From Roseobacter insulae (GTDB taxonomy: Bacteria > Pseudomonadota > Alphaproteobacteria > Rhodobacterales > Rhodobacteraceae), in the NCBI RefSeq assembly GCF_019375555.1, contig NZ_JAHXDN010000010.1, positions 1 to 64,000 on the forward strand: a stretch of DNA of 64,000 nt, in the 5' to 3' direction. Of this stretch, positions 51,593-63,962 are shown one piece after another. The first letter of the stretch is position 1. Each line of letters opens with the position of its first letter. The notes under the pieces are model-generated. The model saw nothing but the letters and a program-made list of their open reading frames with translations, was not told the DNA's origin and ran no database searches. The position numbers were made by a program, and so were the translations under genes.

Positions 51593-51668
51593 GCCCCTAT
51601 AGCTCAGCTGGTAGAGCAACTGATTTGTAATCAGTAGGTCCGCGGTTCGAGTCCGTGTGGGGGCACCA
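51593..51668 (+). tRNA. tRNA-Thr (anticodon TGT)
   Basis: The 76 nt cloverleaf is readable directly: acceptor GCCCCTA pairs with TGGGGGC (one T-G wobble), D-arm AGCTCAGCTGGTAGAGC, anticodon stem ACTGA-TTTGTAA-TCAGT with anticodon TGT, T-arm CGCGG-TTCGAGT-CCGTG with one imperfect pair, and an encoded CCA end. Its 3' end is the attachment point of the prophage-like island that begins directly downstream. Confidence 0.96.
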
Positions 51669-52384: not shown

Positions 52385-52507
52385 CTATCTTGGTTTCCAT
52401 TTTCGCCGTTCACCCCAATGCTGATGCCACTCGGTGACTGGCACCTGGCAAAACGGACACCAATAGGGGCGCGGTAGTGCCTTCCATCTGGCGAACAGAT
52501 CAATCAT
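52385..52507 (-). CDS. 40-residue zinc-finger-like microprotein
   Basis: A short frame starting at the ATG at 52507 that overlaps the integrase stop by 8 bases in another frame. It encodes MIDLFARWKALPRPYWCPFC and continues QVPVTEWHQHWGERRKWKPR. The C-x2-C-x7-H-x-H spacing could bind one zinc, and the basic C-terminus could contact nucleic acid. The overlap with the integrase and the absence of stop codons support a real, translationally coupled gene, but its small size leaves doubt. Confidence 0.5.
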   Translation of the reverse strand: MIDLFARWKALPRPYWCPFCQVPVTEWHQHWGERRKWKPR

Positions 52508-53645
52508 CCACCGGCCGCTTGATCGCGTCGATCGCGCGCAGGGCGCTGTCGAATTGCGGCGGCATGTAGGTTTCACCCAGGATGGGATCAACCGCGGCCG
52601 AGTTGCCCAGAACGTCGCCGATGTCCTCGCGCATCGCGCCGCCGGCGCGGGCCCAGACGCCGAACGTGCGGCGCAGATCCCTGAATTGAAGCGTGGCCAC
52701 CGTTGGCACCGCCTTCGCGGCGTGGGCGCGGATCTCGCGCCAGCGGGCGTTGAACAGGCGCACATTGTAGGGACGCTTGCTGATGTGATCGACCAGCAGG
52801 GTGACCTGGCCGCTGGTGGCGGCATCGAGCAGCTGCTGCACGCGACCGGCCGCCAGCTGGTGCACCGCTGCGATCCCGTGGTTGCCCCGCTTGGAGCGCA
52901 CGAATTCCCAGATCAGGCGGCCGTTAGTGCCGGGCACCTGAACCCATTTGAAAGCGTCAAGCCGCGCTTCGCGAATGTCTGTCTGGCGGGCACCGTTCAG
53001 GGCGGACAGGGCAATAGCGCAGGCCATCGCCGGCATGCCGAGTTTATCGGCCGATTTCAGCAGCTGGTCATATTCAGGCCAGGTTGCAAACCGCGTTCCG
53101 GGGGCGGCGGATTTCAGGCCCAGCCGGGCGCAGGGGTTGCTTTGCTCCGGACGCCAGCCCTTGGTTTCGGCGAAGGACATCAGCCGCGACATCATCAGCA
53201 TGATGGATTTGGAATAGCTGTCCCCGTGTTTCCCGCGCAGCGTGTCATACCAGGCGTCCATGACCGGCTTGGTGAATTCAATCACCAGCGCATCCGCCCA
53301 TTTGGCTTCGATCACGTTCAGGTTCGTGTTGTAGCTTTTCCGCGTGGCGGGTTTGCGATCCTTGAAGTGCCGTGAGCCGCGATAGATGTGGATCAGGGCG
53401 CTGATGGTGCGCTGGCCTGCCCCTCTGGCCGCGCCTGTCCCGTTTAGGGCGCGCTGCAGCTGCAGGTTCAGGCGTTCGGCTTCGCGTTTGGACCAGGTGG
53501 GGCGGTTGGCGTCCAGATCGACGGTTTCAAAGCCCAGCCGCTGCGCATCGGCGGTGGCTTCCCACCAGACGCGCACCGAGCCATCGGCGCGCCGGCGCTG
53601 GCGCAGGTTGGTGACTTTTTCGGTGATGGGTTTCCAGCTGCTCAT
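52500..53645 (-). CDS. int: tyrosine recombinase (phage integrase)
   Basis: A 381-residue integrase from the ATG at 53645 (MSSWKPITEKVTNLRQRR), chosen for the GAGGGAGG upstream. The catalytic set is visible: Arg about 219 (NGARQTDIREARL), Arg about 325 (RDLRRTFG, with Arg in place of the first His of the HxxR box), and nucleophile Tyr about 360 (ILGETYMPP). An N-terminal arm-binding and core-binding domain precede it. It excises and integrates the island at the adjacent tRNA-Thr. Its start overlaps the AlpA-like gene stop by four bases. Confidence 0.93.
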   Translation of the reverse strand: MSSWKPITEKVTNLRQRRRADGSVRVWWEATADAQRLGFETVDLDANRPTWSKREAERLNLQLQRALNGTGAARGAGQRTISALIHIYRGSRHFKDRKPATRKSYNTNLNVIEAKWADALVIEFTKPVMDAWYDTLRGKHGDSYSKSIMLMMSRLMSFAETKGWRPEQSNPCARLGLKSAAPGTRFATWPEYDQLLKSADKLGMPAMACAIALSALNGARQTDIREARLDAFKWVQVPGTNGRLIWEFVRSKRGNHGIAAVHQLAAGRVQQLLDAATSGQVTLLVDHISKRPYNVRLFNARWREIRAHAAKAVPTVATLQFRDLRRTFGVWARAGGAMREDIGDVLGNSAAVDPILGETYMPPQFDSALRAIDAIKRPVDD

Positions 53646-53899
53646 GCGGTCATGGCCTCCCTCAAGAGTACGATGTGGGTTCTGGGTGCTTTCTGGTCTG
53701 GCTGGTCGCTGGCTGTGCGGCCCTGCAACGTCACCCATGCCGCCACTTCCTCCCGACGCCAGCGCAGCGGGCGCTGGCAGGTGGGCAACGGCAGGGGGAA
53801 ATCATGCTCCTGTTCCAGCCTTGCGCGGATCCGCAGGAAGGCCGTGCCGCTGTTCAGGCCGATGATCTGCGCAACGTCTTCCTTGTCTACAAAGGCCAT
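53642..53899 (-). CDS. AlpA-like excisionase / DNA-binding protein
   Basis: An 85-residue protein from the ATG at 53899 (MAFVDKEDVAQIIGLNSGTA). A winged-helix AlpA/MerR-like pattern is visible: VDKEDVAQIIGL, FLRIRARLEQEHDFPLPLP, and RPLRWRREEVAAWV, the last being the usual motif of such excisionase-like proteins. Position directly upstream of and overlapping the integrase (ATGA) supports a role as recombination directionality factor or integrase activator. Confidence 0.75.
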   Translation of the reverse strand: MAFVDKEDVAQIIGLNSGTAFLRIRARLEQEHDFPLPLPTCQRPLRWRREEVAAWVTLQGRTASDQPDQKAPRTHIVLLREAMTA

Positions 53900-58769: not shown

Positions 58770-59939
58770 ATGACCGACCGGGACACATACAGCCTTGAAC
58801 AGATCAAGGATATGCTGCTGGCGCGGATCGATCAGGTGGTTGATCGTTACGCGCCGGCTGCACCCGGTTCGCACACCACCTTTGGCAAATATTACACGTT
58901 GAACCCCGGCCGGCCGGACAGGTCGGTGGGTTCGTTCTGCGTCACCATGAGCGGATCCGGTGCGGGTCGCTGGGCCGATTTTGCCATGTCGCCGCTTCCA
59001 GGTTCCAGATCCAGCGCGGATTTTGCCACTGGCGACATTCTGGACCTGATCGCGTTGAGCTGCGGGTGCGACATGCGCGGGGCTTTGACCGAGGCGCGCG
59101 CCTTTCTGGGGTTGCGCACGCTCAGCCCAGAGGAACGCCGGCGCCAGGAGCAGCGCGCGGCCGAATTGAAGCGCCAGCGCCAGGACGCGGACCAGGCGGA
59201 TCGCGAAAAGCGTTCCAAACGCGAAAAACAAGGTTTGGCAATTTATCTGTCCGGGCAACAGCAGCTGCGCGACACCCCTGTGCATCACTATTTGCGCGAC
59301 ACGCGCGGCATCAATCTTGCCGATCTGCCACGCCAGCCGGGTGTCATCCGCTACGTGCCGGAGTGCTATTACCAACACACAGACGACAAGACGGGCGAGT
59401 ATGAGGATGGCAAATATGCCGCCATGGTCGCCCTGTTTACCGACAAGGCAGGCAAGCCCGCCGGGATCCACCGGACCTATCTGCAGCGCAATTCAGATGG
59501 ATCGTGGGACAAGGCGCCGATCATGCAGCCGAAAAAGGTGCTGGGCTGGCGGCCGGGCAGCTGGATCCAGATATGGAAGGGCCTGGGGCCGCGCGGCGGC
59601 AAGCCGTGTAGCCTGAAAGACGCAGCACCCGGCCAGCACGTCCTGATCACCGAGGGCATCGAGGACGCGCTCAGTGCGGCCTTCCTGAAACCGGATGCGC
59701 GTGTATTGGCAGCCTATTCGCTGAGCAATCTTGGATCGATTGACCTGCCCGCCTGCGTCACGGCCGTGACGATCGTGGCAGATCTGGACGACAACGACAC
59801 CGCCCGCGACGCGCTGAGGCGCGCCGTTAAGAAACACCAGGACGCCGGCCGCGCCGTGCGTCTTTTCCAAAACCAATGGGGCGGCAAGGATCTGAACGAT
59901 GCCCTGCGCGCCGCGCAAACTGACAAGGGGGCAGCGTGA
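58770..59939 (+). CDS. Toprim-domain primase-like replication protein
   Basis: A 389-residue protein. The N-terminal half contains a zinc-less primase-type region (GSHTTFGKYYTLNPGRPD, GAGRWADFAM, GDILDLIALSCGCDMRGAL), then a basic coiled coil (about 112-150), and a Toprim domain with the catalytic Glu in ITEGIEDALSAAF near 295 and the acidic DxD in VADLDDND near 337. It resembles the DUF7146/Toprim proteins of alphaproteobacterial phages that prime replication. It is followed by the P-loop replication protein three genes on, so these form the replication module. Confidence 0.87.
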   Translation: MTDRDTYSLEQIKDMLLARIDQVVDRYAPAAPGSHTTFGKYYTLNPGRPDRSVGSFCVTMSGSGAGRWADFAMSPLPGSRSSADFATGDILDLIALSCGCDMRGALTEARAFLGLRTLSPEERRRQEQRAAELKRQRQDADQADREKRSKREKQGLAIYLSGQQQLRDTPVHHYLRDTRGINLADLPRQPGVIRYVPECYYQHTDDKTGEYEDGKYAAMVALFTDKAGKPAGIHRTYLQRNSDGSWDKAPIMQPKKVLGWRPGSWIQIWKGLGPRGGKPCSLKDAAPGQHVLITEGIEDALSAAFLKPDARVLAAYSLSNLGSIDLPACVTAVTIVADLDDNDTARDALRRAVKKHQDAGRAVRLFQNQWGGKDLNDALRAAQTDKGAA

Positions 59940-60471: not shown

Positions 60472-60929
60472 GTGCGCTTGTCCGTCGAAAGCAACTGATC
60501 AACCACGATCCTGAAAATGGCAAATTTGGGGACTGCTACCGCACCTGCGTCGCCATGGTGATGGGATTGGATCCCGCAGAAGTGCCGCACTTCTGTGACG
60601 GCAACCCCGACGATGTAAGCGGAACGACTGGCCTGAGAAATTGGCTGGCACCGCAAGGATTGGGCGTTTTTCAGGTGATCTATGGTGCCGACACGCCCTT
60701 TCGCGACGTCATGTTTTCGCTGTGCCATCTTTCTCCCGAAATCCCAACAATCATCACGGGGATGGGGACGCGCGGCGTTAATCATTGCGTCGTTGCGATC
60801 GGCGGCGAAGTATTCTGCGACCCCTGCAATGGCAAACCTGTCAAAAAGCCATTCACCGGGCCGGCAGAACAAAATGACGAGGCGTGGTGGTGGATCGAAG
60901 TGATCGCCAAGGTGCCAACGCATGGATAA
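60468..60929 (+). CDS. papain-fold (C39/transglutaminase-like) phage protein
   Basis: A 153-residue protein (MSALVRRKQLINHDPENGKF). A Cys-His-Asp arrangement typical of papain-like folds is visible: Cys in GDCYRTCVAMVMG near 22, His in GVNHCVVAIGG near 105, Asp in VFCDPCNG about ten residues later. It could be a peptidase, amidase or an inactive binding domain. It lies between replication genes rather than lysis genes and overlaps both neighbours, which suggests an intracellular target such as a host protein. Confidence 0.65.
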   Translation: MSALVRRKQLINHDPENGKFGDCYRTCVAMVMGLDPAEVPHFCDGNPDDVSGTTGLRNWLAPQGLGVFQVIYGADTPFRDVMFSLCHLSPEIPTIITGMGTRGVNHCVVAIGGEVFCDPCNGKPVKKPFTGPAEQNDEAWWWIEVIAKVPTHG

Positions 60930-62847
60930 CGGCTACGGATCCGCCCCCACCACCGAAGAGATCCGGGATGCGCTGGACAATGCACCGGAAATGCCCCCGG
61001 CTGACGGTGGGTCCAAACCCCCGGTCCAGCCGCCAAAACCGACAGGCGGCGGCCGCGGCGGCGCGCCAGGGCGCAAGAAGGGCGAGATCTTTGACGACTG
61101 CCCGGTGACGCCGTTGGGGATCAACGGCGATTATCACTATTTCCTCGACGCCAGCGGGCAGATGCGCAAGGCCAAAAAGCTGGACGGTCATGTGGCGATG
61201 TCCCTCTTCGGGCACGCCATTGGGCAGCTTTGCTACAATTTTGCCGAGTGGAAGAAGGAAGACAGCGGCGAGTTCGTGCGCAAGCCCGGCCGCTTCGACG
61301 CCTACAAGGCCGGGATGGCCATGTATACCGCGGTGGGGGAGCTTGGCCCGTTCAATCCGGACAATTCCGTGCGCGACGTGGGCGCCTGGACGGATGACGA
61401 TGGCAACCTGATCTATCACACCGGCGATGTGATCTACTACAAGGGCGAAAAGCACAAACCCGGCCGCCTGGCGGGCAAGATATACCCCGCAAGGCCGCCG
61501 ATCCCGCACCCTGGTGAAAGCGACACGCCCACCGATCCGGTGCCCGAGATCATGCGCACGCTGGAAACCTGGAACTGGACGGTGCCGGATGTGCACCCCT
61601 TTGTCGCCCTGGGCATGATCTGCGTGCAGATGTTGTGCGGGGCGCTGGACTGGCGGCCGGTGTTCTGGCTGCTGGCGCCAGCCGGCGCCGGCAAGTCCGA
61701 GCTGCAAAAGCTGATCAAGCTGCTGCATGGCGATGACGGGCTGATCCAGACCACGGACGCCACCAAATCCGGCATCACATCCAAAATCGGACAATCCAGC
61801 CTGCCGGTCGCGGTGGACGAGCTGGAGCCCGGTGACGAGCGATCCACAAAGGAGAAAGACATCATTGCCCTGGCGCGCGTGGCCGCGTCCGGCGGCGAAT
61901 GGTTCCGGGGATCCGCGGATCAGTCTGGCGTTGGCGGCAAGGTCTATTCCGCCTTCCTGTTTTCCTCGATCCTGATCCCGGGCGTGATGAAGACACAGGA
62001 TGTGCAACGCCTGATCCGCCTGGAACTGAAACCACTCGACGAGGGTATTGCCAAGCTGAACCTGCAGCCGCGCACCTGGCGCAGCCGCGGCGAGAAGCTC
62101 AAGCAGCTGCTGATGCAGCGCTGGGAGACCTGGCCCGAACGCCTGTCCATCTGGCGGCATGAACTGGAGGTCAACGGCGTCATGGGCCGCGATGCTGACA
62201 ACTGGTCAACCGTGCTGGCAATGGCGGACATGGCGATGCAGGAGGCCATGCCAGACGAGGGCACCACCTCCAGCTGGGCCAAGAAGATCGCCTTTGTCGC
62301 CAGCGCCGGGCGCGAAGACACCATGAACGACGCCGATGCGATGGTTTTGCATTTGATGGGGCAACCGCTGGAGCCCTGGAGCCGTGGCGATCACTACACG
62401 GTAGCGCAGTGGATCCTTGCGGCGGCGAACCTGCCAGGTGCGCCCAAAAGTCTTGTCGCGCAGCTGAGCGGTGACAGCAGCTATGACGATGTGGACGCGA
62501 GGGAGCGTCAGAAACGGGCCAACGAGAAGCTGGCACGCTTTGGACTGCGGGTTGCCGGCACCAAGGCCGATCCGCTGCTATTCATCGCCAATAAAAAGAT
62601 CCAAGGCCTGCTGGATCTGTTCAAGGGCACGGAATTTGCCGGTGGCGCGTGGTCGCAATCGGCCAGCCGGATCCCTGGGGCGAAGCCTGCCCCCAACCCC
62701 TTGACGCTTGCCGGTATTCCATCCCGCGGCCAATTGGTGCCCCTGTCATCAATTCCCGGTCTAAGCAGCCTGCCAATGGACGCAGCCACCGTTGCGGACG
62801 CTCCAGCGGGCCGCAAACCTACCTCAGACGTAGACGATTTCGGGTAA
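60922..62847 (+). CDS. phage P-loop replication protein (helicase/primase-helicase-like)
   Basis: A 641-residue protein. After a disordered Pro/Gly-rich N-terminus (about 1-55) there is an alpha/beta region (about 60-220) and a P-loop ATPase core: Walker A APAGAGKSELQKLI near 254, Walker B LPVAVDELEPGDE near 296, and a sensor-like SILIPG. The C-terminus (REDTMNDADAMVLHLMG; SYDDVDARERQKRANEKLAR) resembles DNA-binding tails of DUF927/YfjI-type phage replication proteins. It is the last gene before the repeat-rich non-coding segment and is the likely origin-unwinding protein. Confidence 0.85.
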   Translation: MDNGYGSAPTTEEIRDALDNAPEMPPADGGSKPPVQPPKPTGGGRGGAPGRKKGEIFDDCPVTPLGINGDYHYFLDASGQMRKAKKLDGHVAMSLFGHAIGQLCYNFAEWKKEDSGEFVRKPGRFDAYKAGMAMYTAVGELGPFNPDNSVRDVGAWTDDDGNLIYHTGDVIYYKGEKHKPGRLAGKIYPARPPIPHPGESDTPTDPVPEIMRTLETWNWTVPDVHPFVALGMICVQMLCGALDWRPVFWLLAPAGAGKSELQKLIKLLHGDDGLIQTTDATKSGITSKIGQSSLPVAVDELEPGDERSTKEKDIIALARVAASGGEWFRGSADQSGVGGKVYSAFLFSSILIPGVMKTQDVQRLIRLELKPLDEGIAKLNLQPRTWRSRGEKLKQLLMQRWETWPERLSIWRHELEVNGVMGRDADNWSTVLAMADMAMQEAMPDEGTTSSWAKKIAFVASAGREDTMNDADAMVLHLMGQPLEPWSRGDHYTVAQWILAAANLPGAPKSLVAQLSGDSSYDDVDARERQKRANEKLARFGLRVAGTKADPLLFIANKKIQGLLDLFKGTEFAGGAWSQSASRIPGAKPAPNPLTLAGIPSRGQLVPLSSIPGLSSLPMDAATVADAPAGRKPTSDVDDFG

Positions 62848-62961
62848 TCTCATCATGGACCAACGCAACCCATTGAAATCGCGCCACTCTTTCCGCTTCC
62901 CCCTGACCCGCTTGGATGCCATTATTTACGCGCGACGTGGGCCATTCCACATGGGTCAGGG

Positions 62962-63245
62962 CCACAACGCCACAACGGTCAGAATATCCACCGTTGTGCC
63001 CCCCGTTGTGGGCTTTTCCGCTGTAATATCAAGCGGTTGCAGTCCACCCACAACGCCACAACGCCAAAACCGGGTTTCCTCACGTATGTGCATGCGCGCA
63101 TGCGCGCGCACGTGTAAACATACGTTTTACCGTTGTGGCGTTGTGCCTTACCTCTATCCCCTTGAAAGATATAAAGAAAAGACCACAACACAGCCCACAA
63201 CGCTTGGCTTTTTTGCCGTTGTGGGCGTTGTGGGCACCGTTGTGG
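62962..63245. repeat. iteron array CCACAACG / CGTTGTGG, 13 copies
   Basis: CCACAACG at 62962, 62970, 63048, 63056 and 63195, with CCACAACA at 63183. CGTTGTGG at 63004, 63131, 63217, 63226 and 63238, with CGTTGTGC at 62992 and 63139. Ten copies are exact and three differ at the last base. Several occur as head-to-tail pairs at 8- or 9-base period, and the two orientations alternate in blocks, giving potential large hairpins. This density far exceeds chance in 284 bases. Confidence 0.92.
63081..63116. other. 36 nt perfect alternating pyrimidine-purine tract (Z-DNA-prone)
   Basis: Every base from 63081 to 63116 alternates pyrimidine-purine, rich in CG and CA/TG steps, including the 14 bp palindrome GCATGCGCGCATGC at 63090-63103. 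It lies in the middle of the iteron array. Such tracts readily adopt Z-DNA or cruciform under negative supercoiling. Confidence 0.85.
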
Positions 63246-63290
63246 TCATGCCTAACCACCTGAAAACACTTAAAAAAGGGGGTTTTTAGC

Positions 63291-63962
63291 GTGGCGAAGC
63301 CCAAAAACTCGTTCGAGGATCTGGCACGGGATGCTGCGAAGCGGATCGAGGACGCACGCGACCTGAATGATCAGCTGACGTTCCTGCCGGACGTGAGCGA
63401 GGCCGCCGAGCCGGGCGAAGGCAAGGCAGTGGGCCGTCCGAAGGGCGCACAGAACAAGGGCAGCAGCCAGATGCGCGAGTGGCTGGCGGCCAATGGGCAC
63501 CAGATGCCCGAGGACATGCTGGCGCAGATGGCCGGGCTGAACAGCCGCGATCCGGCGATCGTGCAGGCGATGAACCAGACTGAGCAGGTGCTGGCCTGGG
63601 CGTTCCAGAACGCGAAGTGGCAAGGCGGCAAGAAGGACGGCCAGCGCATGCTGCCCACGCCCACGCAGAAGGTCGAGCTGTTCAAATCGCTCTACACGAT
63701 CCTGCTGCGCGCGTCTGAGGCGCTGCTGCCCTACGGCACGCCGAAGGCCAGCCCCGATGTCCAGGTGAACCAGCAGACCACGGTGATCATGCCCGCGATG
63801 CCCAGCCAGCCAGGCGCCGATGCGCGCGTGGTAGAGGGCAAAGTGGCGCATCGGATGGTGCCTGCGGACGTGGCCGATGAAATGCAGCAAAAACAAGGGG
63901 TTACAAGATCGGATGCCGACAATCCGGAAAGTGAAATCCGGACGGATGAGGTAAAGCCATGA
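63291..63962 (+). CDS. putative terminase small subunit
   Basis: A 223-residue protein beginning with GTG at 63291 (MAKPKNSFEDLARDAAKRIE), preceded by AAAGGGGG. The GRPKGAQNKGSSQMREWLAA stretch and the helical middle (PTPTQKVELFKSLYTILLRA) resemble small packaging or DNA-binding proteins placed just before the large terminase. The acidic C-terminus is disordered. It overlaps the next gene by four bases. The call rests mainly on position and composition. Confidence 0.55.
   Translation: MAKPKNSFEDLARDAAKRIEDARDLNDQLTFLPDVSEAAEPGEGKAVGRPKGAQNKGSSQMREWLAANGHQMPEDMLAQMAGLNSRDPAIVQAMNQTEQVLAWAFQNAKWQGGKKDGQRMLPTPTQKVELFKSLYTILLRASEALLPYGTPKASPDVQVNQQTTVIMPAMPSQPGADARVVEGKVAHRMVPADVADEMQQKQGVTRSDADNPESEIRTDEVKP

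Follow-up and report, generated by a model that had tools for sequence, protein, structure and literature searches.

What function is served by a dense series of short repeats lying directly behind a helicase gene, and which protein reads them, is the question raised by a prophage of Roseobacter insulae contained in the window, the whole 64,000-nucleotide stretch of DNA analysed here. Positions 62962-63245 hold thirteen copies of one 8-mer, ten of them exact (CCACAACG) and three with a single terminal change (two GCACAACG and one CCACAACA), a count that an earlier note on this DNA had made and that recounting and shuffles confirm. The commonest 8-mer of the surrounding segment 62848-63290 (443 bp) occurs ten times, against a maximum of three for any 8-mer in 2000 dinucleotide shuffles. 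Two further exact copies lie in the window outside the array, and the genome as a whole holds 220 (96 + 124) in 4.88 Mb, ten of them within the array's 284 bp; equal frequency elsewhere, which the earlier note had named as grounds for refutation, was not met. The pattern of two exact words separated by 0 to 10 bases occurs four times in the whole genome, each time inside the array.

The word orientations run ++--++--++---, with spacings of 8, 22, 12, 44, 8, 75, 8, 44, 12, 22, 9, and 12 bp, and this series makes the array nearly mirror-symmetric about a centre near 63098 (Table 1). Facing blocks of opposite orientation had been recognised before, the symmetry of the plan had not. The array starts 115 bp past the end of the helicase gene and sits between it and the TerS-like gene, with an alternating, G+C-rich core at its centre; comparable cores are visible in the array centres listed for relatives. 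Opposite-orientation copies are mutually complementary and could pair, as an RNA structure would require, and facing blocks are often unequal in tandem spacing (8 versus 12), which makes them unsuited to one continuous RNA helix. Chance, simple repeats, or RNA structure can hardly be credited as the explanation, with the shuffles never exceeding three copies and spacing conserved across relatives while words change.

Three further properties of the region were considered. An open reading frame of 144 codons (62855-63289) runs through the entire array, with a similar frame in a related genome (G137, 56% identity) and a partial one in another (G389); it is probably incidental. The region is likely non-coding, as previously stated, and this is not proven, since that frame stays open across the array. 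A conserved left stem-loop was dropped as a candidate feature, since the window phage and part of its relatives have it but in many others it is weak or absent. The GC-skew inflection that had been suggested as a check on an origin is absent at the array, with the right side exceeding the left in 29 of 61 loci (p 0.49).

Table 1. Coordinates of the array blocks and neighbouring features in the window.
Feature	Coordinates	Strand	Description or basis
Toprim primase	58770..59939	+	Pfam DUF7146 E 7e-21, Toprim_3 E 7e-15; PHROG DNA primase E 1e-31
Helicase (SF3/D5-type AAA+ fold), proposed initiator and array reader	60922..62847	+	PHROG_35358 DNA primase E 1e-30; structure model; Foldseek
Helicase C-terminal domain (about residues 482-621), proposed DNA-reading head	62365..62784	+	own model, pLDDT 86
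Codon of helicase residue T595, co-varying with word base 7	62704..62706	+	co-variation analyses
Outer left block	62962..62977	+	two words, 8 bp apart
Middle left block	62992..63011	-	two words, 12 bp apart, orientation opposite
Inner left block	63048..63063	+	two words, 8 bp apart, directed at centre
Centre	63064..63130	.	G+C-rich core, alternating purine-pyrimidine; from sequence
Inner right block	63131..63146	-	two words, 8 bp apart, directed at centre
A+T-rich right spacer, likely opening element	63147..63180	.	spacer A+T composition
Middle right block	63182..63202	+	two words, 12 bp apart; first copy with one terminal change
Outer right block	63217..63245	-	three words, spacings 9 and 12 bp
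TerS-like gene	63291..63962	+	name inferred from position ahead of TerL; Pfam and NCBIfam gave no match

The array region is part of a prophage adjoining tRNA-Thr (51593-51668). The final 40 bases of this tRNA (46 by eye) recur about 42.3 kb further along the contig (G000:C2:93974-94013), and the tRNA and its distant 3'-end copy are likely attL and attR. Gene order runs from an integrase (52500-53738) through an S24-type repressor, small early genes, the Toprim primase, and the helicase to the array, followed by the TerS-like gene, the terminase large subunit (TerL), a head-to-tail connector (PF12236, E 4e-82), and tail genes, with TerL assigned through similarity to annotated TerL and the tail genes inferred from order. 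The whole looks like a podovirus-like temperate phage. Primase and helicase are encoded by two separate genes, and a scan of nine prophage proteins for a RepA-type initiator beside the repeats returned no Rep family.

Comparison with relatives places similar arrays behind related helicases. A helicase match was obtained in 10 of the 394 family genomes searched, its own genome counted. The six best carry an array immediately 3' of the helicase, with a plan of the same kind and four words in all: three genomes share CACAACG (the window's own, G137, and G389), and GGGGTACACAC, CTACGAC, and TGAAACC occur in one genome each. Four distant family genomes gave no array at first; re-reading showed GTTACG-type repeats in G218 and TGTCCC-type repeats in G070, with G098 and G028 unresolved. 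Helicase relatives in viral contigs amount to 67 loci, 64 of which have a two-orientation array within 3 kb behind the helicase, outscoring all 67 shuffled controls. Below threshold were L059 (simple-repeat word, filtered out), L071 (contig ending at the helicase), and L078, and the passing loci include L082, whose array is doubtful. No array was found at the helicase of L078 or at that of L264. Conservation of the repeats in related prophages, the second condition set by the earlier note, had an unexpected outcome: it holds for the array plan, kept with the helicase, and fails for the word itself, which has changed.

For word alignment, 103 unique arrays were reduced to 93 by removing ten loci by hand (L078, L082, L087, L205, L210, L212, L213, L214, L217, and L220), mostly spurious or unresolved, with L087 nevertheless showing an array. 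Aligned words share G-T at positions 3-4 in 92 of 93 cases, and 32 six-base cores were listed, a few of which may be register artefacts, corresponding to about 30 different words. Same-orientation spacings across arrays (n=565) include 8 (242), 12 (134), 11 (92), and 9 bp (43). The inner plan could be parsed in 83 of the 93 arrays, with A+T of 0.68 in the right spacer, 0.54 in the left spacer, and 0.42 in the centre, the right exceeding the left in 76 of 83.

At least ten CACAACG arrays were recovered by DNA pattern among 80 loci examined, eight with a window-type helicase in the locus. In the other two, L306 and L321, the array has another layout and neighbours an unrelated Prim-Pol/AAA gene, so the word alone is no marker of the window-type helicase. 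In these two loci (L306 1950-2057, L321 2388-2494), eight CACAACG words form a tighter two-orientation array directly 3' of a Prim-Pol/AAA_25 gene, which has no detectable relation to the window helicase and represents another primase-helicase type with a downstream array. A separate repeat region, at L036 2117-2574 (G341:C161), consists of about 12 copies of words like CGGATGGA and CTCCATCC in about 460 bp, arranged in tandem and unrelated to the window array.

Placed between two genes, the array could instead be a cos or pac site at which packaging starts, recognised by the TerS-like product of the downstream gene. Across 62 loci of the podovirus clade, the median gap is 55.5 bp from the end of the array to the TerS match and 146.5 bp from the helicase match to the start of the array, and in seven of them it lies more than 300 bp from the helicase and is still near TerS, as a packaging site would be. 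Outside this clade, the array accompanies the helicase rather than the terminase. The Phaeobacter phage-plasmid pP11_f (L221, NZ_CP010594) differs in the type of its portal, ClpP-type protease, and capsid genes; the 331-bp gap behind its helicase (25% identical) holds eight GTTAC/GTAAC words (shuffles: mean 0.7, maximum 5), 1.3 kb ahead of a TerS-TerL pair. This array is less regular and escaped automatic detection set at six copies. In the Arsenophonus plasmid paPv15 (7.9 kb, seven annotated genes, topology listed as linear), whose helicase is likewise distant, an array of 13 copies sharing the inner plan of the window array follows the helicase at 52 bp, with TerS 3.4 kb off. In Synechococcus phage MinM1, 12 copies are arrayed where its distant helicase gene ends. 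Five TerL relatives lacking a helicase match have no array of this sort in the 9-23 kb scanned around TerL. These controls (BcepC6B, Hodr, Ss1, Pmp11, and Rollin, with scanned stretches of 22.7, 13.4, 9.2, 17.4, and 15.3 kb respectively, not whole genomes) are five fetched of 15 records listed, and none belongs to the 23 phage records in which a helicase was matched at E ≤ 0.01. In Rollin, TATGCA occurs six times, two tandem pairs included, at about 6.4 kb from TerL, an occurrence attributed to chance. With these arrays found away from TerS and absent from such surroundings of TerL, a packaging site is improbable.

Two side observations concern individual elements. pP11_f encodes, by annotation, an acyl-homoserine-lactone synthase and a LuxR-type regulator (L221 2452-3725). 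Acinetobacter phage Acjo_20 (L227 3076-3385) has an 11-copy GTTACA array upstream, not downstream, of its helicase gene.

Co-variation between proteins and words bears on which protein reads the array. The scan covered the helicase, TerS, TerL, and primase of 34 non-redundant phages having all four, comparing 1448 variable columns with each word position. By mutual information, base 7 is matched best by the helicase column of window residue T595 (Z 8.4, next 4.3), and no helicase column at the other word bases is comparable. High values also arise for TerL columns, at the nearly invariant base 4 (Z 11.1, due to one deviating sequence) and at base 2 (Z 6.6). On a 48-phage tree built leaving out the helicase C-terminus, each of the ten inferred base-7 changes shares its branch with a change of residue 595 (18 in all), with an excess of 8.1 against 4.4 for the next best of 1354 columns and a hypergeometric chance of 5e-9, uncorrected for columns and positions. 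On the four-protein tree of the 34 phages, residue 595 changes at 7 of 9 base-7 changes (excess 5.5), barely ahead of a TerL column (5.1). The best TerS column at base 7 in these same phages reaches only Z 3.3 and excess 4.0 against the values of residue 595, a further point against packaging by the TerS-like protein.

The correspondence itself was read from nested sets: 87 of the 93 arrays have a helicase of at least 450 aa, 72 of these are non-redundant at 90%, and 55 have at least 33% identity to the window helicase, a cut set only after distant clades were seen to break the code. Among the 55, threonine at 595 goes with T at base 7 in 29/29, arginine, lysine, or histidine with C in 18/18, and tyrosine with G in 3/3, so that all 50 non-serine cases fit; serine is mixed (three T, one C, one A). 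Across all 72, R/K/H go with C in 24/24, threonine with T in 29 and A in 5 of 34, and tyrosine with G in three and T in two of five, the five threonine exceptions all coming from the TGTCTAA clade. The residue-base code is firm for one base only, mainly in one clade, and weaker outside the main clade.

Other positions give less. A post hoc rule for base 8 combines residue 595 with residues 597-598: T595 plus Ala-Gly is accompanied by G in 23/23, T595 plus Ala-Arg or Asn-Arg by A in 5/5, and S595 plus Ala-Gly by A in 2/4. Residue 600 pairs with base 5 as R-T (16/18), S-C (7/9), and Q-A (6/8), which is only suggestive of a determinant. After tree correction, bases 2, 5, 6, and 8 have no clear outlier determinant column. 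In the sister helicases L100, L054, and L140, which share 79-85% identity across residues 60-560, GTTGTG is combined with T-AG, GTTGCG with K-AG, and GTTGCA with K-SC at residues 595 and 597-598.

A later test took 17 helicases of other families, plasmids, and phages; of the 12 with R or K, 10 have C at base 7. Agreement came from L251, L254, L255, L256, L258, L267, L268, L221, L231, and L225, the last with its array 2.4 kb away, and disagreement from L224 and L228, both R/K with another base. Set aside were L252 (isoleucine, a new residue), L257 (serine, with a non-adjacent array), L253 and L264 (neither with an array found), and L263, the same genome locus as L209 and a duplicate of the first set. 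The test is weak: it involves one residue class only, distant words often have C at base 7, part of the words was assigned by eye, and several loci were already known when their residue was read.

The helicase model (mean pLDDT 90) matches SF3/D5-type helicases in Foldseek, including SaPI5 Rep (7ola), NrS-1, pox D5/E5, and ASFV primase-helicases, with the top 50 at E 1e-8 to 3e-6 and TM 0.26-0.52 by either length, and SaPI5 Rep itself at E 5.5e-8 and TM 0.26-0.45. By sequence, no match to PDB chains falls below E 0.07; DUF927 is matched weakly in 23 of 62 helicase relatives and not in the window protein. Residue 595 is located in a C-terminal beta-hairpin (594-607) of the models, and the C-terminal domain modelled alone has no PDB fold match at E ≤ 0.001.

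The same type of C-terminal domain also ends AntA (E 6e-24) and Bro-N (E 2e-22 and 7e-10) antirepressor-like proteins, at L253 6574-7563 (G724:C105) and at L260 14-781 and 9980-10948. In L253, the antirepressor-borne domain lies about 0.8 kb behind the helicase, and the hairpins are nearly identical, with VNRRINGRATRQVAIPARQ in both. Further proteins ending in this domain occur at L261 2442-3419, L262 2624-3601, and L218 1180-2055, two with DUF4389 and one without a Pfam match.

Such proteins, together with the location of the array at the border of early and late genes, would be expected if it were an operator array for late transcription, bound by a regulator (e.g. AntA/Bro-N) with the same reading domain. 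No AntA/Bro-N gene with the helicase-type domain was found in the window's genome, where the helicase match is single, and plasmids retain helicase and array without the same late genes; very little weight is left to this explanation.

The array is most probably the replication origin of the prophage, read by its own self-loading SF3/D5-type initiator helicase and working like SaPI rep/ori, an interpretation drawn from comparison alone. The earlier note had likewise proposed an initiator-binding origin with this P-loop protein as candidate initiator, which gains comparative support in that the plan follows the helicase and residue and base co-vary, without replication having been shown. In support of a helicase-read origin, the array is far beyond chance and keeps its plan while the word changes, it follows the helicase across packaging modules, residue 595 co-varies with base 7, and the helicase fold resembles SaPI5 Rep. 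Against this explanation count the unchanged GC skew and the helicase loci L078 and L264 without arrays. Also counting against it are the adjacency of podovirus-clade arrays to the TerS-like gene, the TerL columns with high Z at bases 4 and 2, the narrow lead in the 34-phage tree, the weaker code outside the main clade, and the two CACAACG arrays with an unrelated gene.

In the proposed mechanism, the helicase would act as initiator, its C-terminal beta-hairpin reading the 8-bp word. Helicase molecules on the centre-pointing inner pairs and on the outer pairs would form two opposed rings, which could open the A+T-rich right stretch, after which the Toprim primase would prime synthesis. Joint change of word and hairpin would leave every lineage with an origin of its own, and such change is plausibly driven by exclusion between co-resident elements or by escape from mimics like the ICP1 nuclease Odn. 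The array, the conserved plan, the helicase linkage, and the residue-base co-variation can be read from the sequences compared, with DNA binding, ring assembly, opening, and replication at the array all inferred.

A wider interpretation is held tentatively, with doubt slightly outweighing belief: that the helicases form a large family of phage initiators whose reading head, matching no solved fold, uses a near residue-per-base code (residue 595 for base 7 and, as a suggestion only, residues 597-598 for base 8 and residue 600 for base 5), has been repeatedly re-coded so that each lineage has its own word in a fixed plan, and has been lent to AntA/Bro-N antirepressors. If true, AntA/Bro-N proteins with the reading head could tie induction to origin use or disturb the origins of rivals. 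The relatives would provide dozens of natural matched initiator-origin pairs in which the DNA word is altered and the geometry unchanged, making the co-change of the initiator with all repeat copies, the specificity residues, and the placement of two rings directly testable. The helicase gene could serve as a guide to origins of uncultured phages, and the system is a likely basis for exclusion among co-resident prophages, phage-plasmids, and satellites.

Among known systems, P4 has an origin with iterons and a second site, crr. P4 alpha, a fused primase and helicase acting at the element's own origin (PMC7145576), resembles the system proposed here in that the element's own primase and helicase activities serve its origin, and is unlike it in fusing what are separate genes in the window prophage. 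For PLE RepA/ori and the ICP1 nuclease Odn in Vibrio, an initiator DNA-binding domain co-varies with origin repeats as swappable modules (PMC8263062); the proposed initiator of the window system likewise co-varies with its word, whereas PLE has a RepA_N initiator (no helicase), few alleles, and semi-palindromic iterons of about 30 bp. In Gram-negative PICIs, the origin lies downstream of the primase gene (PMC10111431). SCCmec Cch2 binds iterons of a putative origin downstream of its gene through a C-terminal domain (PMC7581432), a likeness to the proposed reading here, and differs in having three reported iterons and a different helicase branch.

SaPI rep/ori is the comparison on which the proposed function is modelled. 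Its iteron origin lies directly downstream of the initiator helicase gene and is recognised by the Rep C-terminal domain (PMC7581432), and the view that an origin of this form was undescribed is only partly right, such origins directly 3' of an initiator helicase being known. The likeness extends from a proposed initiator helicase with a short-repeat array directly downstream to the fold match with SaPI5 Rep 7ola, and in having many short repeats just behind the helicase gene the window system satisfies that SaPI-type criterion. SaPI origins have a central A+T-rich stretch, whereas the window array has a G+C-rich alternating centre and its A+T-rich stretch on one side. The window system also differs in belonging to phages of Gram-negative hosts, in its many words within one fixed two-orientation multi-block plan, and in a C-terminal domain without a PDB fold match. 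Membership of the SaPI family is not claimed, given the weak sequence relation and the lack of binding or replication data; the natural plasmids with helicase and array are suggestive of helicase-driven autonomous replication, with no experiment. No description of the array or of the residue-base code was found in the open-licence literature, most subscription papers being outside its scope. Within that literature, what appears new relative to known systems is a reading domain without a solved relative, the residue-base code, the number of words, and the fixed multi-block plan that they share.
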